In this document: piece after piece, positions 1,466 through 9,805 of the stretch
Position numbering within the stretch: the stretch's first letter is position 1
Layout: each line of letters starts with the position of its first letter
NCBI GenBank assembly: GCA_016650295.1
Contig: JAENWA010000001.1
Location: 1 to 36,745, forward strand
Reading direction: 5' to 3'
DNA: 36,745 nucleotides
From: Desulfuromonadales bacterium
GTDB lineage: Bacteria; Desulfobacterota; Desulfuromonadia; Geobacterales; Pseudopelobacteraceae
Notes under the pieces: model-generated
The model's database searches: none
Seen by the model: only the letters and a program-made list of their open reading frames with translations
Told to the model about the DNA's origin: nothing
Translations under genes and position numbers: made by a program

Positions 1466-2272
1466 CTATTGTGCCGGTTCAGGCAAACCCGCTGGAAGAG
1501 GCTTTTGGGACTCTATTTCTCGCTGCTCGTGGTAGATGAAGCGGACCATGTAGTACTCAAAGGGATAACCGCTTTCAAAGTAACGGAAACTCTTCTGATG
1601 CCGCGAATCGATGGCCCCCAGGGAGCTTACCCCCGCACCGTAGAGGAAGGCGTTGTCGGTGCTTCCAAATGGATCGATGGCGGAATAGATTCCGTACGTG
1701 ATGCCGGTATCCACAACAAGCCCTCCCGTGTCACGCAGGGACGAGGGGCCGAAGATCGGCAGCACAAGGTAGGGCCCGGAATCTGCCCCCCAGTAGCCCA
1801 TGGTCTTGCCGAAATCCTGTTGGTGCCGTTCCAGGCCGAATGTGGTGGCCGGATCAAACATGCCGGCCAGGCCCACGGTGCTGTTGGTTACGAATCGGGC
1901 AAGCGTTGTCAGGGACTCTTTCCCTTTGAGCTGGAACATGCTGTTGGTGAGGTTCCTGACCTCCCCGATGTTGTTGTAGAAACCGGAGACCCTGTCCTGG
2001 ACGAAGGTTGGGGCAACGAATTCGTAGCCGCTCACCACGGGGAGGAAGAGGTATTTGTCAAAGTAGTAGTTGAACCGGTACATGCTGTGGTTGAAACCTT
2101 CCCAGGGGTCCGACACATCGGCGAATCGCTGATCCTTGAACTCGGCTATGGTGTGCATGGCCGGCACTTCGGGCTCGCTGTTGACCATGGTCGTGGCGCA
2201 CCCGCTAAGTAACAACGACAGCATCAGGGCGAGGATTGCAGTGCAGGTTCGGTATCGGTTAACGGTGATCAT
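1466..2272 (-). CDS. mlaA: MlaA (VacJ) family outer-membrane lipoprotein
   Basis: MlaA sits in the outer membrane and removes mislocalised phospholipids from the outer leaflet, handing them to the periplasmic MlaC carrier. The 268-residue protein begins with a signal peptide and a lipobox LSGC with the lipidated Cys at residue 25. The family signature DPWEGFNHSMYRFN is at about residues 54-67, and conserved VRNLTNSMFQLKG, FGKTMGYWG and GPYLVLPIFGPSSLRD blocks follow. The start has an AAGGAGT ribosome-binding site. The preceding hydrolase gene ends only 10 bp upstream, so the two are almost certainly one transcript. No mlaBCDEF genes are in the window. Family assignment is firm. Confidence 0.93.
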   Translation of the reverse strand: MITVNRYRTCTAILALMLSLLLSGCATTMVNSEPEVPAMHTIAEFKDQRFADVSDPWEGFNHSMYRFNYYFDKYLFLPVVSGYEFVAPTFVQDRVSGFYNNIGEVRNLTNSMFQLKGKESLTTLARFVTNSTVGLAGMFDPATTFGLERHQQDFGKTMGYWGADSGPYLVLPIFGPSSLRDTGGLVVDTGITYGIYSAIDPFGSTDNAFLYGAGVSSLGAIDSRHQKSFRYFESGYPFEYYMVRFIYHEQREIESQKPLPAGLPEPAQ

Positions 2273-2282
2273 GGTGCACTCC

Positions 2283-3557
2283 TTATTTTTTGAAGAACTC
2301 TACCATGTAGGCCAGGTTGTCCTTGTACTCCAGGTTGCCCAGATGGCCGCCGCGCGGATAGATCTTGACCCGTTCGCCGAAGAGCTGCCTCAGGTAGTCA
2401 AGCTCCGCCTTGGTCAGGAGGAAGTCATTTTCGTTGGTCATCACGCCGAACTTGGCCGACGACTTCAGATACCCCTCGATGCTCCTGATGCTCTCCGAGT
2501 CGATCAGTTCCTTCTTGGTGAGCCCCGGTCGCAGCTTCAGGAAGTGGGGATAGAAGTATTCGTTGATATAGTCATAGAAGCTCAGGTGGGTGGAGACCAG
2601 GAAATAGTCAAAGAGAGAATCGGTGTGACTCAGCACCCTGTTCTTCGGCACGACGTAGCCGCTGTTGGTCATCACGTCTGAGGTAAAGATCATGCCGGCC
2701 AGACCGATGCGATAGGTGAGACCGATCAGACCGGCGGTTTCCGGTTTGGTGAAAAGTTTCTCTGTGTAGATCGAGTAGAGAAAATCCTCGTTGATGGCGA
2801 CGAAATTGCCATAGCGGTAGAATTGGCCGAACTTGGACAGCATCCTGTTGAAGAAGATGCCTTGCTTCTTGGCCCCTCCGGGGATCTGCTTCAGCAGCTC
2901 CTCGATACTGGTGGCCGAACTGTAGAGGTCTACCGGGGGGTTGATCATGAGCACCTTGCGGAAGTTGAAGACTTTCCGCTCCTCGTCCAGCTTGGCAATG
3001 AAGGCGGACTGGACTGCTCCCAGGCTGTAGCCGCCCAGAAGGAACTCAGACACCTCGATGTCATCTTTTACCTGATTCCAGGCGGTCTCCATTGCCCGGT
3101 ACAGGTCAGCCGCGTCCTCGGTCAGATCGCCGGGGACGCGGCTTTGAGAGGCGGAGATGATGAAATTGGCATGGGTCGGCGACGGCAGGGTGATGACGTG
3201 GAAGCCGGCCTGGTAAAAGGTTTTCATCATGGTCATGAGTTTATCAGCCTGGTCGCTTGCTCCCGCACCGCCGATCAGAAAAACCAGCGGCGCCTTGTGT
3301 TTCTGGTAGGCGAAGGTGCATTGCAGCCCCTCATCATAGAAGAAGATTGGCGGCTTTTCCCGCTCCGGGAAGACATTGAGTACAAGATGGCGGGTACGAA
3401 TGTGTGCGGGCAGTTTGGGCATGAGGGCTGCCGGGGTCCCCATGATGGTCGCTTCGTACGATCCCGGGATCGGGTAGCCGTAGCCGTCATCCGCAGCCAT
3501 GCCGTGTACGGGCAGCAGGACGAGGCAGGCGATGATCATTAGTCTCAGATACTTCAT
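2283..3557 (-). CDS. Secreted alpha/beta hydrolase in operon with mlaA
   Basis: The 424-residue protein has an N-terminal signal peptide (about residues 1-22, ending HGMAA) and an alpha/beta-hydrolase core. LVFLIGGAGASD (91-102) resembles the oxyanion-hole strand-loop. GGYSLGA contains a GxSxG nucleophile elbow with Ser178. An acidic residue in NENDFLL and His405 in RGGHLGNLEY are plausible partners of a Ser-Asp-His triad. It is predicted to act in the periplasm or at the envelope. Substrate is unknown. Its tight linkage to mlaA (10 bp) and the nearby acyltransferase genes suggest a lipid ester, but that is inference. The start has AGGAG about 8 bases upstream of the ATG. The 290 bp upstream of it contain no gene I can support. 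Confidence 0.75.
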   Translation of the reverse strand: MKYLRLMIIACLVLLPVHGMAADDGYGYPIPGSYEATIMGTPAALMPKLPAHIRTRHLVLNVFPEREKPPIFFYDEGLQCTFAYQKHKAPLVFLIGGAGASDQADKLMTMMKTFYQAGFHVITLPSPTHANFIISASQSRVPGDLTEDAADLYRAMETAWNQVKDDIEVSEFLLGGYSLGAVQSAFIAKLDEERKVFNFRKVLMINPPVDLYSSATSIEELLKQIPGGAKKQGIFFNRMLSKFGQFYRYGNFVAINEDFLYSIYTEKLFTKPETAGLIGLTYRIGLAGMIFTSDVMTNSGYVVPKNRVLSHTDSLFDYFLVSTHLSFYDYINEYFYPHFLKLRPGLTKKELIDSESIRSIEGYLKSSAKFGVMTNENDFLLTKAELDYLRQLFGERVKIYPRGGHLGNLEYKDNLAYMVEFFKK

Positions 3558-3848
3558 GCGGATGTCTCCTTTAGGTTATGCCTGTCGTATCACACGTTGA
3601 CGTTGGGAGAGATGGCCAGTTTCATGAAATTAGAAAGCAAGTAATCAGCCAACAACCTGTAAAACTACGGAATTTTGATTCGTTTTTAATTTCAGAGTAT
3701 TAGGGTGATTGCAGGGGACTTCAGGCACGTATGAAAGCATTGCACAACCTCAATATTTGACAGAACCACCACATGTTGAGGGATGCGTTGAACAGCTGCC
3801 AGAATCCTCGCGCGCATGTTGCCTTGGTTATTTGTTAAGTTCTGTCTA

Positions 3849-4127
3849 TCAGTGCTGCGTTTCTATTTTGCGGTTGTCCTCAGGTGATACCGGCTTTGTT
3901 GTCCCTTCGGGTTGTACCGACTGCTCCGTCTGGAAGGGAAGGCGCTCCCGTTCGTTGGTCAGTTTCGGTGCTTCCTCGATTACCTGCCAGTTTTTACCGA
4001 CCGGCAGGGTCAGAGGCTTGGGTGACTGCATCACCGGAGCCGTAGCCGATTGCTTAGGGTAGAAAACAGTACACGAGCAGAGAAAGAAAAGGCCAATGGA
4101 GACAATCAGCAGCTGAATAATTTTCAT
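3849..4127 (-). CDS. Small hypothetical lipoprotein
   Basis: A 92-residue protein with a hydrophobic N-terminus and a lipobox-like LCSC, predicting lipidation at Cys19. The mature part is Pro/Thr/Glu-rich and has no domain I recognise (it contains TLPVGKNWQVIEEAPKL). An AAGGAT ribosome-binding site precedes the ATG. It lies in the same orientation between the MFS transporter and the hydrolase gene, with about 130 bp and 290 bp gaps, so it may or may not be in one transcript with them. It could be an accessory lipoprotein of the lipid block. The coding call rests on the signal sequence, the ribosome-binding site and strand consistency. Confidence 0.6.
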   Translation of the reverse strand: MKIIQLLIVSIGLFFLCSCTVFYPKQSATAPVMQSPKPLTLPVGKNWQVIEEAPKLTNERERLPFQTEQSVQPEGTTKPVSPEDNRKIETQH

Positions 4128-4173
4128 GGTGTGATCCTTGTTTATGTGAAATTTTGTAACTTATCAGGTAGTC

Positions 4174-4270
4174 AGGCTGAAGACTTCAATTAACTTGTTG
4201 AGAGTTGAGGGTTGAAGGTTGAAGGTTGAGAACTTCCCTCATCCCTCATCCCTCAACTCTCAACTCTCAA
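4174..4270. repeat. Heptamer inverted-repeat cluster A
   Basis: Tandem 7-bp units of the type GTTGAGG/GTTGAAG (about 4195-4232) are followed at once by complementary units CCTCATC/CTCTCAA (about 4233-4270), giving a long imperfect hairpin. The stop codon of the MFS gene (4260-4262) is the TGA inside a repeat unit. Confidence 0.85.
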
Positions 4271-5501
4271 CCAGAGCCATATCCCGCACCACGAACCTGC
4301 CGCAGAAGAAACAGAGCAAACCGGCCATCACCATGGCAAGCGGGGTGATCAGAAGGGCGCTGCGCAGACCCCACTGGTCGGACAGCCAGCCGAGGATGGA
4401 CGGAGAAACTGCGTCGCCCAGGGCGTGGATGAAGAAGATGTTGACCGCAAAGGCCATGGCGCGTACAGCCGGGTCGGTGACATTGATGATAACGGTATTG
4501 AGCGGCCCGGTGTTGAGAAAAAGAAAAAATTCAGCAATAAAAATCGCCGACATGCACGCGGTCAAACCCGGTGCGAGAATGGCCCAGGCTGCGAAGGGGG
4601 TGCCGATCAGGAACCCCCACCCGGAGATCAGCAGATAGCCCTTGCCGCTCCGTTTCTGCCAGCGGTCGCCGAGCCAGCCGCCGGCCAGGGTGCCCAGTAT
4701 CCCCGCCAGCACCGTGGTCGCGCCGAACATCGTATTCCCTTTGGCCACATCAAGAGAATGGACGCGGTACAGGAACGAGGGTATCCACTGGGCCAGCCCT
4801 CCAATGGCAAAGGTCATGGCCGCCATGGCGAGCGTATTGCAGACAAACGAGCGGTTTCTGAACAAGGCTGAATATCCGGCCGTTGTTTTTCCTTTTGAGG
4901 GCTGCGCTGATGCATCATCGCCGCCGCGAGGCGGGGTGCGCAACAGTGCGATCGGAATGGCCAAGAGCAGACCCGGCACGCCGACCAGCAGAAATGCGGC
5001 ATGCCAGCCGTACCTCTGCCCCAGCACACCACCAAGGAGATAACCCAGGGCACTGCCGACCGGAATGGCGACATAGAACCAGGACAGAATCTGACCACGG
5101 CGCTCTTTCGGGAAGAAGTCGGCGATGAGTCCGGGCGATACTGTTCCGAAACTCGCTTCACCCACTCCGACGGTGGCACGGGCGGCCAGCAGGGTCCTGT
5201 ATCCAGGTGCATAACCGGCCAAGGCAGTGGCCAGACTCCAGACAACCAGGCCTCCGGACGCAAGTCTGGTCCGGCTCCAGTGGTCGCCGAGCCAGCCGAA
5301 GAGCGGGGCGAAGAGCAGGTAGCTGAGCATGAAGGCGCTCCCGAGGAACCCCAGTGCCGTATCGGAGAGGCTCAGATCGATCTTGATCAGGGGAAATACC
5401 GCGAAGAGCACCTGCCGGTCGATGTAGTTAAGCAGGTTCACCGCCAGAAGCAGTCCCAAGGCGTAGCGGCGGTAGGAAAGCGATATCGTTCCGGCGTTCA
5501 T
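4260..5501 (-). CDS. Spinster (Spns)-type MFS transporter
   Basis: The 413-residue protein has about 12 predicted membrane segments. Diagnostic motifs are NYIDRQ (25-30), the MFS motif A in the form GWLGDHWSRTRL (69-80), and VGVGEASFGTVSPGLIADFF (111-130) followed by FYVAIPVGSALGYLLGG (142-158). From memory these last blocks match closely the Spinster family, whose animal members SPNS1/SPNS2 move lysophospholipids or sphingosine-1-phosphate. The gene lies 121 bp downstream of an acyl-activating/ACP/acyltransferase fusion on the same strand, the pairing expected for lysophospholipid uptake and re-acylation (compare LplT-Aas). MFS subfamily assignment is strong; the lysophospholipid substrate is inferred. 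The C-terminal codons run into a heptamer repeat that supplies the stop. Confidence 0.88.
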   Translation of the reverse strand: MNAGTISLSYRRYALGLLLAVNLLNYIDRQVLFAVFPLIKIDLSLSDTALGFLGSAFMLSYLLFAPLFGWLGDHWSRTRLASGGLVVWSLATALAGYAPGYRTLLAARATVGVGEASFGTVSPGLIADFFPKERRGQILSWFYVAIPVGSALGYLLGGVLGQRYGWHAAFLLVGVPGLLLAIPIALLRTPPRGGDDASAQPSKGKTTAGYSALFRNRSFVCNTLAMAAMTFAIGGLAQWIPSFLYRVHSLDVAKGNTMFGATTVLAGILGTLAGGWLGDRWQKRSGKGYLLISGWGFLIGTPFAAWAILAPGLTACMSAIFIAEFFLFLNTGPLNTVIINVTDPAVRAMAFAVNIFFIHALGDAVSPSILGWLSDQWGLRSALLITPLAMVMAGLLCFFCGRFVVRDMALVES

Positions 5502-5519
5502 GCGGTGTAACCTCCATAA

Positions 5520-5616
5520 TTAGGCTGAAGGTTGAAGGCTGAAGGTTGTTAGGAAAACCTGTTTTACTTCAGCCTTCTACCTTCAGCCTTCTACCTTCAG
5601 CCTTCAGCCTTCAGCC
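5520..5616. repeat. Heptamer inverted-repeat cluster B
   Basis: Units GGCTGAA/GGTTGAA (5522-5550) face a longer complementary array of about seven CCTTCAG/CCTTCTA units (5567-5616). The cluster fills most of the spacer between the MFS gene and the upstream acyltransferase fusion gene, immediately after the latter's stop codon. Confidence 0.85.
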
Positions 5617-5622
5617 CGTTTT

Positions 5623-8097
5623 TCAAAGTTTCTCCACCGCCTGACGCGTCTTTTCCACGATCTCAGCCGGCTCCTCGTAGCGAAAGCGAAGCGGATCTCC
5701 AAAGGTTACCGTCACCTTGCCTCGTTTTGGAAACGTGGCATCGTGCGGAAGTACCTGTTCCGTACCGCTGATTTTTATCGGAACCACCGGAATCCCCAAC
5801 TCCTTGACCATGATACCCAGTCCCAACTGGAAGGGCTGCAATTTAAAGTCCCTTGAATGCCCACCCTCAGGGAAAATCAGGATGTTAAAGCCGGCATCGG
5901 CAAGCCTGCCCATGTATTTCAGCGAGCCGCTGAACCCCTGTGACTGGGGAAGAGGAAAGAGATTGAACAGCACGGTACCATACTCGTAGGTCAAGCGCCT
6001 CAAAATCTTGCTGATACCATGATACTCTCCGAAGAAAAACTCTTCCCAGGCGGCGGTAGCGCTTTTATAGCGAATCTTCGGCGGAAGGGCACACATGACG
6101 GCAGGATGATCCAGGTAACTTACATGGTTGGCCACGAAAAAAACCGGCCCATCCAGCTTTTCCAGCTTGTCAATCCCCCTCACATCGAGCGAGACGAAGC
6201 TTCGGAACAGGGGGTAATGGAAAACGGTGTCCCAGACCATCCGCACCCCCCTGAAGAAGCGGGCATTGGTCCAGAACCGAAAATGGTCGTGCCGGGTCAG
6301 CTTTTCCCGTTTCGCGATGATCTGGCGCAGGTCCGAGACCCGTGTCTGCGGACCGATCTGGGAGTCCTCGATATCGAGACGGTATTCCTGCTCCAGGAAA
6401 TTGACCAGCTCCAGCCGGTCGATGGAGGTAAGGCCCAGGTCGGCCACCAGCAGGGATTCCTCGCGGATCTGCGCGGCGCTGGTACCGGTCACCCTGGCGA
6501 GCAGGTTGAGGAGGCTGTCCCGGCTGACGGCTGCATCGCCTTCCTCCGATCCCTTTTTTATCTCCTCCTTAACTGCAAACTTCTTGATCTTGAGAGTCGT
6601 GGTTTTGGGAAATTCCGGCTCGTTCCAGAGGGTGTAGCCGGTAATCTGGTGCAGGCTATCCAGGTTCTTGTTTGCCTGAGCGATGATCTCTTCAGGAGAA
6701 ATCCCGCTTCCATCCGGGAGCAGCACGGCATGCACCTCTTCACTCGCGCCCCTCTCGACGCCGATGACGCAGGACTCCTTTACCCCGGCAGTCTTGTTCA
6801 GCACCGCTTCCAGTTCGTCGGGATAGACATTGACCCCCGAACCGGTAACGATCAGATCCTTCTCCCTCCCCTTGATGGTCAGCCAGCCGTCCGCGTCAAT
6901 CTCCCCCAGGTCGCCGGTCCGAAACCAGCCGTCACCCGAGAAGGCGTCGCGACTGGCCTGCTCGTTCTCGTAGTAGCCGGGAAAGACGTTGTCCCCGCGC
7001 GCCAGGACCTCCTTCTCCGCGATCTTCACCTGAACCCCCGGCAGAGGCGGCCCGACCGAACCCGCCACTTGACGCTCCATGGTGTTGACACAGAGCACGG
7101 GCGAGGTTTCGGTAAGTCCATACCCCTCCAGAACAGTGAATCCCATGCTGCTCCAGAATGTGAAAACCTCCGGATCAAGGGGGGCGCCGCCAGAGACGAA
7201 GACCGTGAAGTTTCGGCCGAACTTTTTCTGTACCGGGTAAAAAATGAGCCGCCGCACCCCGTGTGGAAGCTTGATCGCGAGTTGCGTCAACCTCAGGAAC
7301 AGACCGGAGAGGTGTTTGTCCTCAAGCTCCCGCTCGATGGTCGTTTTCAGCAATTGCATGAGGCGGGGGACGGACATGATAACATGGATGTCCTCCTCGC
7401 TCAGCGCCTCCATGATTGCAGAGGGCTTGAGGGTGCGCAGATAGACGATAGCAGCGCCGCGGTAGAGCGGGGTGAAAAAGCCGCCCATCTGCTCGAACAT
7501 GTGGGATAACGGGAGCAGCGAGAGGAAGCTGAACTCGGGGGTGATGATCGGTACCTGCTGGTTTATCTGGGTCATGTTGGCGACCAGGTTTTTGTGGGTC
7601 AGGATGACCCCTTTCGGATTGCCGGTAGTACCGGAAGTATAGATGAGCTGCGCCGTATCCTCGGCTGCAGGGATTGCAATCTCGCAGATAGGCTGGATGC
7701 CTTCCAGCAGGTATTGCAGGTCTTCCAGCAATATCGAGGTGTCTGTGGCCATCCGCTCGGGTTTGAAGCGGCTCTGCAGGACGACTTTGGCTTTGGTGAG
7801 GCTACGGATGGAATCCGCGCGCCCTAGATCGGACATGAAATCCACCGGAACTGCGATTGCGCCGCGGATGATGATGCCCCAATAGGCGATTGCCCACCAG
7901 GAAGAGTTGGGCCCCCAGATGAGCACCTTATCTCCGGCTGCTACCCCGTTTTGCTCCAGGAGGTTTGCCATTCTTAGTGCCAGATCGTAAAAATCCCCGT
8001 AGGAAACCACCTGCCTTCGTATTCCGGTGCGGTTCACAAAGGCGGTTTTTTCACCCAGCGATTCAAACGTTTTGAATAGATCGATCAATGTCTGCAT
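5623..8097 (-). CDS. Acyl-CoA/acyl-ACP synthetase - acyl carrier - PlsC-type acyltransferase fusion
   Basis: This protein combines three activities. Residue numbers count from an upstream in-frame ATG at 8113-8115. An AMP-forming adenylation domain (about 10-520) has YTSGTTGNPKGV at 159-170, GYGLTETSP at 331-339 and TGD at 400-402. An acyl-carrier domain (about 530-600) has the phosphopantetheine site DLGLTSIDRLE with Ser564. A PlsC/LPLAT domain (about 640-820) has HX4D (His664-Asp669) and FPEGG (748-752). It should activate a fatty acid, load it on its own carrier and transfer it to a lysophospholipid or glycerol phosphate at the inner membrane. I chose the second ATG (8095-8097) because it has GAGGGG at ideal spacing, whereas the first has no ribosome-binding site; the longer form would add 6 residues. 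Aas of E. coli has related activities in a different order. Domain calls are strong, the substrate is inferred. Confidence 0.92.
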   Translation of the reverse strand: MQTLIDLFKTFESLGEKTAFVNRTGIRRQVVSYGDFYDLALRMANLLEQNGVAAGDKVLIWGPNSSWWAIAYWGIIIRGAIAVPVDFMSDLGRADSIRSLTKAKVVLQSRFKPERMATDTSILLEDLQYLLEGIQPICEIAIPAAEDTAQLIYTSGTTGNPKGVILTHKNLVANMTQINQQVPIITPEFSFLSLLPLSHMFEQMGGFFTPLYRGAAIVYLRTLKPSAIMEALSEEDIHVIMSVPRLMQLLKTTIERELEDKHLSGLFLRLTQLAIKLPHGVRRLIFYPVQKKFGRNFTVFVSGGAPLDPEVFTFWSSMGFTVLEGYGLTETSPVLCVNTMERQVAGSVGPPLPGVQVKIAEKEVLARGDNVFPGYYENEQASRDAFSGDGWFRTGDLGEIDADGWLTIKGREKDLIVTGSGVNVYPDELEAVLNKTAGVKESCVIGVERGASEEVHAVLLPDGSGISPEEIIAQANKNLDSLHQITGYTLWNEPEFPKTTTLKIKKFAVKEEIKKGSEEGDAAVSRDSLLNLLARVTGTSAAQIREESLLVADLGLTSIDRLELVNFLEQEYRLDIEDSQIGPQTRVSDLRQIIAKREKLTRHDHFRFWTNARFFRGVRMVWDTVFHYPLFRSFVSLDVRGIDKLEKLDGPVFFVANHVSYLDHPAVMCALPPKIRYKSATAAWEEFFFGEYHGISKILRRLTYEYGTVLFNLFPLPQSQGFSGSLKYMGRLADAGFNILIFPEGGHSRDFKLQPFQLGLGIMVKELGIPVVPIKISGTEQVLPHDATFPKRGKVTVTFGDPLRFRYEEPAEIVEKTRQAVEKL

Positions 8098-8255
8098 GGA
8101 TAGCCCCTCGATCATGCTTCGGTCAGCAGGGATCCGAAGTGGAAGTTACGTATCAAGACTGTCCGCTTTGCTTTTGAAATCAGCTCCTCCTCCCCTTTAA
8201 GCCCAGAGGGTACACTAAGGGGGAGGGGGTTATCTAACCAACCGTCGCATCCCGG

Positions 8256-9320
8256 TTATCTTTCGTGTCCACGGCCTCGTTCATCATCTTTGTTCTGCCC
8301 CTGGCCGCGCTCCCGATTAGGCTCCTGCTGCTGATGCTGTTCAGCTGCTGGCTGCTGATGCTGGGTAGCCGGTGGCTGTTGTTTCTGTTGCGCAGCTGGC
8401 GGCTGCTGCTGATGCTGGGCAGCTGGCGGCTGCTGTTGCTGCTTCTGGTGTTGCTGTTGCTGTCTCTGATCATTCTGTTGCTTCTGTTGCTGTGGTCTCT
8501 GATCATTCTGCTGTTTCAGCTGTTGCTGCCTCTGGTCATTCTGCTGCTTCTGTTGCTGCAGCCTCTGATCACTCTGCTGTTTCAGCTGTTGCTGCCTCTG
8601 GTCATTCTGCTGCTTCTGTTGCTGCAGCCTCTGATCACTTTGCTGCCTCTGCTCGTTCTGGCCTGGACTTCTCACCGGTGCCGCTTCCTGCCTTCCCCGC
8701 TGTGCAGGGGCGGGAGCTTTTTGTTCCACCTGCTTAAAGTGCTGCTGGATTACCTTGTCTCGCGGCTGGTAACGGTATTGCTGGCTGCGCAGCGTGTGCT
8801 GCTGTTCCACGCGAGGATACCTGTCTCCCATATACTGCCGCTGGTAGACGGGCAGCGGTGCGGGTGCCGGAGCAGAGCCGCGATTCCAACGGTTCCATCC
8901 ACTTCGACGCTGTTCCCAATCACGCCCCCAGTGCTGGCCCCAGCGCGGCGGCGCATTCGACTGCCATTCGCGAAAGTACATTGGCGGCTGCCGGTAATAG
9001 CTTACGGGGACACGAAGGATGAACAGCGGAACATCATACGGCTGCACAATTCCCCATGGGCCGTTGTACCAGGAACTGGCATACCAGTTATCGCCTTCGT
9101 AAACCCAGTACATGCCATCGTAAAAGAAATAGTTGGCATCCATCCGGGGAGCGTAGTAGACTGGGTAGCCCGGTACCAGGACGAGTTCCGGGTACACCGG
9201 CAGGCTGATGCCGATGCTCACGGTGGGTAACCCGATGCCGATGCTGATCCCGGCAGTGGCAGACGTCACCGATAGCAACAGCATGAACATCGCAATCAAT
9301 CCGTAACGTATTTTTCGCAT
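8256..9320 (-). CDS. Secreted Gln-rich low-complexity protein of unknown function
   Basis: The 354-residue protein starts with a clear signal peptide (MRKIRYGLIAMFMLLLSVTS, cleavage near ATA-GI). Residues about 25-140 form a Tyr/Trp/Pro-rich segment with a YFFYDGMYWVYEGDNWYASS-type block, as in small exported proteins of Geobacter relatives. From about residue 195 onward the sequence is mostly Gln with Asp-Gln-Arg and Lys-Gln-Gln repeats, ending in a charged Arg/Gly/His tail. A good GGAAGGAG ribosome-binding site precedes the ATG. Part of the Gln tract is encoded by an exact 66-bp tandem duplication. The Q-rich part may be a flexible surface or matrix segment. I do not recognise a catalytic domain; function unknown. 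Confidence 0.75.
   Translation of the reverse strand: MRKIRYGLIAMFMLLLSVTSATAGISIGIGLPTVSIGISLPVYPELVLVPGYPVYYAPRMDANYFFYDGMYWVYEGDNWYASSWYNGPWGIVQPYDVPLFILRVPVSYYRQPPMYFREWQSNAPPRWGQHWGRDWEQRRSGWNRWNRGSAPAPAPLPVYQRQYMGDRYPRVEQQHTLRSQQYRYQPRDKVIQQHFKQVEQKAPAPAQRGRQEAAPVRSPGQNEQRQQSDQRLQQQKQQNDQRQQQLKQQSDQRLQQQKQQNDQRQQQLKQQNDQRPQQQKQQNDQRQQQQHQKQQQQPPAAQHQQQPPAAQQKQQPPATQHQQPAAEQHQQQEPNRERGQGQNKDDERGRGHER
8508..8639. repeat. Two exact 66-bp tandem repeats inside the Gln-rich gene
   Basis: The units 8508-8573 and 8574-8639 are identical over 66 bp (22 codons), so the duplication keeps the reading frame. Degenerate copies continue to about 8460. Such an exact repeat is prone to copy-number change. 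Confidence 0.9.
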
Positions 9321-9422
9321 TTTATACTCCTTCCGTGAAATGTAAGAGTTCAGGCAGTGCCCAATCCCTTACTGGTAATATGAGGAAAGCAGCACTCAAC
9401 TCAGAGTGCCGCAATCCAGATC

Positions 9423-9740
9423 TCAGTGCTTGTCGTGTCCATGACCACGACCGTTGTCCTCATGATGTTTTTTGTATTTCTTATATTTTTTATAGTGCTT
9501 GGCGGGCCTTTCTCTCTCTATATAGACTCGGCGGTCTCTTTCCACATAATATGGACGGCCTGAGTCAATCATGACGTTTACCCCTGGCGGCGCCGGCAGG
9601 TAGCCATTAACGTGGACATTTACATTGGGAGGTGCGGGAAGACCCGGCGGTCCTGGCAATCCGGCATTGGCCTGATTGAGTCCGAAGGTGACGGTGACGG
9701 CTGACAAGATCAGTAATGCAATAATAATTTTCTTACGCAT
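9423..9740 (-). CDS. Small secreted Pro/Gly- and Lys/His-rich protein
   Basis: A 105-residue protein with a signal peptide (MRKKIIIALLILSAVTVTFG, cleavage near ANA-GL). The mature part starts with GLPGPPGLPAPPNVNV repeats, has a PYYVERDRRVYIERERP segment and ends in a KKYKKYKKHH...HGHDKH tail that could bind anions or metal. No enzymatic domain is recognised. The start at 9738-9740 has an AGGAG ribosome-binding site; an upstream in-frame start at 9779 lacks one and would put 13 residues before the signal peptide. A sequence matching the sigma-54 -24/-12 consensus lies about 65-80 bp upstream of the start, with an activator-like site beyond it, so expression is probably conditional. Confidence 0.7.
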   Translation of the reverse strand: MRKKIIIALLILSAVTVTFGLNQANAGLPGPPGLPAPPNVNVHVNGYLPAPPGVNVMIDSGRPYYVERDRRVYIERERPAKHYKKYKKYKKHHEDNGRGHGHDKH

Positions 9741-9805
9741 AACGGCTCCTTTTTTTGGCACTTCTCTGAAAGTGCACACCTGTAGGCTTGCACTAAACTA
9801 CCAGC

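Follow-up and report, generated by a model that had tools for sequence, protein, structure and literature searches.

A Geobacterales gene cluster that joins an MlaYZ-type pair to a Spns-family carrier and an acyl-loading fusion protein, with a predicted role in phospholipid recycling

The window, that is the whole stretch of DNA analysed here, comprises 36,745 nucleotides of contig JAENWA010000001.1 (assembly GCA_016650295.1) from a Desulfuromonadales bacterium of the order Geobacterales. Its minus strand carries, between positions 1466 and 8115, five open reading frames that encode an MlaA-family protein, a hydrolase, a small lipoprotein candidate, a major facilitator superfamily (MFS) transporter and a fusion protein. 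An initial annotation, made from the sequence alone, had read five same-strand genes of these kinds as the parts of a cycle that retrieves, flips and re-acylates phospholipids. All five reading frames were confirmed, with Pfam matches for MlaA, the MFS and the fusion domains, and they are laid out as follows.

1466..2272, minus strand: MlaA-family outer-membrane lipoprotein of the MlaZ type (PF04333, 208 bits; lipobox LLLSGC as read)
2283..3557, minus strand: MlaY-type alpha/beta-hydrolase, a predicted secreted periplasmic phospholipase (GxSxG motif as GYSLG; triad Ser178, Asp378, His405)
3849..4127, minus strand: lipoprotein candidate of 92 amino acids (lipobox-like LCSC read from the sequence)
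4260..5501, minus strand: Spns-family MFS carrier, a predicted lysophospholipid importer/flippase (MFS_1 in Pfam, 181 bits)
5623..8115, minus strand: AMP-binding / acyl-carrier / PlsC-type acyltransferase fusion (three Pfam domains)

From the fusion to the MlaA-family gene the intergenic gaps measure 121, 132, 291 and 10 bp, and no terminator-like site was found on the coding strand in any of the four. The five genes are more than chance neighbours, because linkage of the fusion with the MFS gene, and of the fusion with the hydrolase gene, recurs across 107 genomes of the window's order, the counts for which are given below. The homologue of the 92-amino-acid lipoprotein candidate, found in 18 of the 80 loci introduced below, goes with the MFS or the hydrolase gene.

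By sequence comparison, the hydrolase and the MlaA-family protein are orthologues of Pseudomonas aeruginosa MlaY and MlaZ, an assignment based on the exact correspondence of the catalytic triad and on a closer match to MlaZ than to Escherichia coli MlaA. The hydrolase is 37% identical to MlaY, and its S178, D378 and H405 align with S187, D388 and H415, the residues given as catalytic in MlaY (PMC11977310). The triad is invariant in 32 aligned hydrolase rows. The MlaA-family protein shares 48% identity with P. aeruginosa MlaZ (203 amino acids aligned) and 31% with E. coli MlaA (181 aligned), and phmmer scored it at 210 bits against MlaZ versus 72 bits against MlaA, the MlaA comparator being that of E. 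coli and not P. aeruginosa PA2800. An AlphaFold2 model of the hydrolase (predicted local distance difference test score 92) has an alpha/beta-hydrolase fold. Two fold searches with this model recovered the alpha/beta-hydrolase fold in general terms; esterases, lipases and thioesterases rank high among the matches, and none of the best 50 listed in either search is named as a phospholipase. The window hydrolase has no family match in Pfam or NCBIfam; a weak match to Abhydrolase_6, below the curated cut-off, occurs in two fused relatives, and a sequence search of the PDB gave a chance-level match only (E 0.045). Its N-terminus is hydrophobic (helix 2-20 in the model), and a cysteine at position 11 would also allow a lipoprotein. 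The idea that the hydrolase might be an undescribed enzyme was rejected, since sequence comparison identifies a MlaY orthologue. The MlaYZ half of the cluster is a new member of an already published system, reportedly described in P. aeruginosa by Guest et al. in PNAS in 2023.

In P. aeruginosa, MlaZ (PA3239) is proposed to hand mislocalised phospholipid to the phospholipase MlaY (PA3238) for destruction (PMC12569750, PMC11131202; the system is also covered in PMC11977310, PMC10925693 and PMC10474453). Resistance to SDS/EDTA has been reported as an assay for MlaYZ (PMC11977310). The window shares with that system an orthologous phospholipase with the same triad and an MlaA-family partner directly after it. 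It differs in that its MlaZ has a lipobox cysteine, none being present in the first 40 residues of P. aeruginosa MlaZ, in that this MlaZ is the only PF04333 match of its genome, and in that the operon adds a Spns carrier, a small lipoprotein and an acyl-loading fusion. Within 8 kb of the P. aeruginosa pair, in the one plasmid-labelled record used, where the two genes are annotated as 'alpha/beta fold hydrolase' and 'VacJ family lipoprotein', no Spns-type carrier or acyltransferase is annotated. The initial annotation had suggested that the hydrolase might produce or release lysolipid in the periplasm. Orthology predicts a MlaY phospholipase, and a periplasmic step of this kind was already known from the published pair. 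PldA (PF02253), the outer-membrane phospholipase that generates lysolipid there in E. coli (PMC5874903), has no match in the window's genome and matches in 5 of 58 genomes of the order; because PldA is absent from this genome, MlaYZ is the likely source of lysolipid.

The pair is conserved well outside the window. A scan of named genomes gave 114 hydrolase relatives, of which the best 80 are the 80 loci referred to here (L-numbers); they include Geobacter relatives, Nitrosomonas, Nitrospira, Desulfobacterales and Alpha- and Gammaproteobacteria. An MlaA-family gene directly follows the hydrolase in 77 of the 80, and the remaining three end at a contig edge. In a second sample, the 107 genomes of the window's order, every one of the 79 hydrolase matches has an MlaA-family gene after it, and of the 83 MlaA-family genes 80 come after a hydrolase, which bears out the earlier view that the two belong together. 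Both are found in 64 of these genomes, the MlaA-family gene alone in 2 and neither in 41 (Fisher value 1e-27, which is not a true probability as the genomes are related). In three lineages the two are a single protein encoded in one reading frame: L095:5553-7844 in Nitrospirales, and L110:2201-4306 and L111:2299-4560 in two genera of the window's order. A model of the L095 fusion (predicted template modelling score 0.75) has low confidence at 438-481 and 503-563, between the halves, and therefore no MlaY-MlaZ interface can be read from it. MlaY and MlaZ thus form a widespread, sometimes fused unit well beyond Pseudomonas.

Several observations concern the surroundings of this pair. Two MlaA-family genes stand in tandem behind one MlaY hydrolase at L019:5575-7505 (genome G246). 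DUF748 proteins, which we take to be AsmA-like, and in Skermanella a TamB-domain protein lie near MlaYZ (L110:4303-5937, L111:4568-6193, L053:6546-8192, L166:7113-11275), and a link between lipid bridges and MlaYZ is possible. An 894-amino-acid protein with seven MlaD (MCE) stretches is encoded 2.3 kb upstream of MlaYZ at L096:1742-4426. A MlaY relative with 35% identity is found at NZ_CP084075.1 1754435-1755628, in a record of 2.1 Mb from Fusobacterium vincentii that is classed as a plasmid.

The MFS protein is, on sequence comparison, a Spns relative. In a phmmer search of PDB chains its best matches were SPNS1 (6e-55) and SPNS2 (4e-53), and it scored 193 and 185 bits against segments of human SPNS1 and SPNS2. 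The best of nine E. coli MFS controls, DgoT, reached 45 bits, and phmmer gave no match to E. coli LplT. Seven residues (D28, R29, D47, R108, E115, R246 and D363), matched by alignment and not on structure, are common to the window protein and SPNS1/SPNS2 and identical in 9 of 9 rows; residues of these kinds are named as proton switches or gates in a Spns study (PMC13192786). The initial annotation had called the carrier Spinster-type and proposed an MFS tree; the tree, built with LplT, EntS and NepI omitted, joins the window protein to SPNS1/SPNS2 with support of 87/97, in agreement with that call. When LplT is included it falls inside the Spns group at 86/88, on a long branch. Because LplT, EntS and others lie on very long branches, we base the Spns kinship on the bit scores and residues, and not on where LplT falls in the tree. 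The window carrier is predicted to be a lysophospholipid importer/flippase. At one related locus (L059:14751-15990) the Spns gene is split over two frames, by decay or by sequencing error.

The third component, the fusion protein of 830 amino acids, matches AMP-binding at 240 bits, PP-binding at 23.6 bits (cut-off 20.8) and Acyltransferase at 56.5 bits in Pfam. Its start is probably Met7, at base 8097, because homologues begin there; the carrier serine is residue 564 counted from base 8115 and 558 counted from 8097. The motif TSGTTG at 160, the carrier Ser564, N663 H664, D669 and FPEG at 748 are the same in all 21 rows (20 homologues and the window protein). We predict that the fusion charges its own carrier with a fatty acid and acylates a lysophospholipid. 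In the phylum at large (E 1e-150) it was found in 4 of 247 genomes, all in the window's order. Three homologues (G303, G268, G260) each contain one in-frame stop, reflecting decay or sequencing errors.

The initial annotation had also proposed a search for a conserved neighbourhood, and such a neighbourhood exists. With presence thresholds of E <= 1e-100 for the MFS carrier, 1e-200 for the fusion and 1e-60 for the hydrolase, and with linkage defined as lying within 12 kb, the carrier was present in 85 of the 107 genomes, the fusion in 78 and both in 70. The two are linked in 41 of those 70, always with the fusion first and on the same strand, and in 31 the gap is at most 500 bp; the fusion and Spns are thus a second gene pair. 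The fusion and the hydrolase are linked in 22 of the 60 genomes that have both, with the hydrolase downstream in 12 and upstream in 10. Cultured relatives with the cluster include Oryzomonas japonica (L036) and Geomesophilobacter sediminis (L059). Among the 80 loci, the Geobacter group (45 loci whose hydrolase is at least 59% identical) has Spns in 29 and the fusion in 21 within the fetched stretch; some loci with Spns only start inside or near the Spns gene, and an upstream fusion is possible there. Loci with the upstream order are dispersed over the hydrolase tree: six changes are needed on the best tree, and well-supported branches force at least three origins (six rows have the upstream order, and many forks are weak; L034, L047, L052 and L056, truncated by contig ends, were omitted, and four of the 35 loci that fall outside the Geobacter group served as outgroup). 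Because there are two gene orders, and because the upstream order is scattered on the tree, a single inherited neighbourhood does not explain the joining.

The novelty lies in finding MlaYZ joined, more than once, to a Spns carrier and to an acyl ligase-acyltransferase that has its own carrier domain. Among the papers listed in our literature searches none links Spns or an AMP-ACP-PlsC fusion (ACP, acyl carrier protein) with MlaYZ, a weak negative as most subscription papers lay outside the search.

A separate clue comes from Spns genes that stand away from the cluster. The 107 genomes contain 99 Spns places, 46 within 12 kb of the fusion or the hydrolase and 53 not. At ten of the 53, in four genera of three families (L124, L125, L145, L146, L153, L183, L184, L185, L187 and L189), an acyltransferase gene lies 6-57 bp downstream on the same strand. 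The Pfam Acyltransferase domain was present in the five of these enzymes that were tested. These same five gave 73-84 bits against the acyltransferase domain of the own-genome LplT-Aas protein discussed below, 47-56 bits against E. coli Aas and 15-22 bits against E. coli PlsC; each of the remaining five shares 51-59% identity with one of the five scored. In E. coli, the carrier LplT brings lysolipid in and Aas re-acylates it, using free ACP (PMC11416262). A Spns gene next to an Aas-type acyltransferase mirrors the LplT-Aas arrangement, and it hints, independently of the cluster, at the substrate of Spns.

We think it somewhat better than an even chance that the cluster joins the destruction of phospholipids by MlaYZ to a dedicated recycling arm, formed by Spns and the fusion, that would run parallel to LplT-Aas. 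This reading draws on orthology, linkage, predicted fold and catalytic residues; substrates and activities are predictions. MlaYZ, by orthology with P. aeruginosa, would cut outer-membrane phospholipid to lysolipid and fatty acid. Once the lysophospholipid had reached the inner membrane, Spns would move it to the inner leaflet, probably with protons. The fusion would activate the fatty acid with ATP and attach it to the built-in phosphopantetheine carrier; the PlsC-type domain would transfer the acyl chain to the lysolipid, so that both products of MlaYZ would be rebuilt into phospholipid. The arm would run alongside the conventional LplT-Aas protein and not instead of it. The broader claim, that Geobacterales possess a complete, largely self-contained cycle that destroys and rebuilds stray outer-membrane phospholipid through MlaYZ, Spns and the ligase-carrier-acyltransferase, is more tentative and stands a little short of evens.

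The likeness to E. coli LplT-Aas lies in the pairing of an MFS carrier with an enzyme that combines an AMP-ligase and an acyltransferase, which follows the same logic. The differences are that the window carrier is Spns and not of the LplT type, that its enzyme has the order ligase-carrier-acyltransferase with a built-in carrier, whereas in LplT-Aas the acyltransferase precedes the ligase and there is no carrier domain, and that the window's genome keeps an LplT-Aas protein as well. The mammalian lysosome offers a second comparison: there, hydrolysis by PLA1/PLA2G15 is followed by export through SPNS1 and re-acylation by LPLAT7 (PMC13277423), again with a hydrolase outside, a Spns carrier and an acyltransferase inside. 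This is an analogy only, and the bacterial route would start at the outer membrane with MlaZ. Compared with canonical Mla (MlaA-MlaC-MlaFEDB), the window has a member of the MlaA family, and genes for MlaE, an ABC ATPase, MlaD and MlaC lie together elsewhere in its genome; the window protein differs in being MlaZ-like and in sitting with a phospholipase. If the recycling reading is true, bacterial Spns would gain a lysoglycerophospholipid role, one with no bacterial example among the papers listed in our literature search, and the lysosomal PLA-SPNS1-LPLAT route would have a counterpart in prokaryotes. One bacterial order would then mend its outer membrane through lipid cleavage and resynthesis, the genes for most steps lying together. 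The reading thus proposes a fate for the MlaYZ products and a concrete, testable substrate for bacterial Spns.

Several results weigh against this reading. The same genome encodes a conventional LplT-Aas-type protein of 1141 amino acids, with MFS (the first part, LplT-like), acyltransferase and AMP-binding domains; LplT matches occur in 27 of 58 genomes of the order. The initial annotation had Spns replace LplT and the fusion replace Aas, and this part of it fell: with the LplT-Aas protein present, nothing is replaced, and Spns as a substitute for LplT was rejected. Because MlaE, MlaD, MlaC and the ABC ATPase are present, the single MlaZ of this genome may also take part in the ordinary Mla pathway. 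At 43 of the 53 unlinked Spns places there is no adjoining acyltransferase, one of these stretches ending 30 bases on. In 38 of the 60 genomes with both fusion and hydrolase the two are not linked within 12 kb, some contigs being short. At the 35 loci that do not belong to the Geobacter group, several of them on short contigs (L099 has a 22% MFS match only), neither Spns nor the fusion lies beside MlaYZ; MlaYZ therefore does not need them. Some of the linkage may stem from transferred islands of lipid genes, and if the cassette has partly spread in this way, the genome counts carry less weight.

A rival explanation is that MlaYZ and fusion-Spns are separate envelope-lipid modules with no common substrate, staying close for shared regulation or through repeated island transfer, with fusion-Spns handling some other acyl lipid. 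Besides MlaYZ standing alone in all 35 outside loci, it is favoured by genus g181, where all 19 genomes retain an intact fusion-Spns pair and only one has a hydrolase within 12 kb. We nevertheless judge it to be unlikely, although a serious contender. The two pairs share one strand and occur joined in either order, the second of which arose at least three times; and in L016 no more than 25 bp separate the stop of Spns from the start of the hydrolase, the two overlapping when the longest reading frame is taken. The alternative in the initial annotation, two unrelated sub-operons lying side by side, is thus right about two modules, each of which also occurs alone; the hydrolase tree and the occurrence of two gene orders lessen the case for a fusion and a hydrolase-MlaA pair that merely abut. 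A different direction for the carrier has also been considered, in which Spns exports a lipid made by the fusion, a drug or a fatty acid into the periplasm, leaving the clean-up to MlaYZ. SPNS2 is described as exporting sphingosine-1-phosphate, and a mycobacterial Spns as a versatile drug transporter (PMC13192786), which also counts against the recycling reading. The Aas-type partners beside Spns repeat a pattern in which the carrier imports lysolipid (PMC11416262), however, and the top PDB match, SPNS1, delivers lysophospholipid to the cytosol (PMC12404768), so that export seems very improbable. Finally, the fusion could be a PlsC-like lysophosphatidate acyltransferase, or make another acyl lipid from exogenous fatty acids. 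Its PlsC-type domain scores 22 bits against E. coli PlsC and 26 against E. coli Aas, which does not separate them. Its top score, 35.5 bits, comes from the corresponding domain of the LplT-Aas protein in the same genome (the others being 22-27); these scores are too close to fix the acceptor by sequence, which also weighs against the recycling reading. This top score and the steady partnership with a Spns carrier speak against the alternative, which we regard as rather improbable.

Upstream of the fusion, positions 8256-9779 encode a Gln-rich protein and a protein of 118 amino acids, which recur with the fusion in part of the loci.

8256..9320, minus strand: Gln-rich protein with a hydrophobic N-terminus, a possible accessory (homologues at part of the loci)

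The Gln-rich protein has no match in Pfam or NCBIfam. Its homologue is found in 14 of the 80 loci, 11 of which have the fusion in the stretch. In L058 and L059 the Gln-rich and 118-amino-acid proteins are encoded on the opposite strand.

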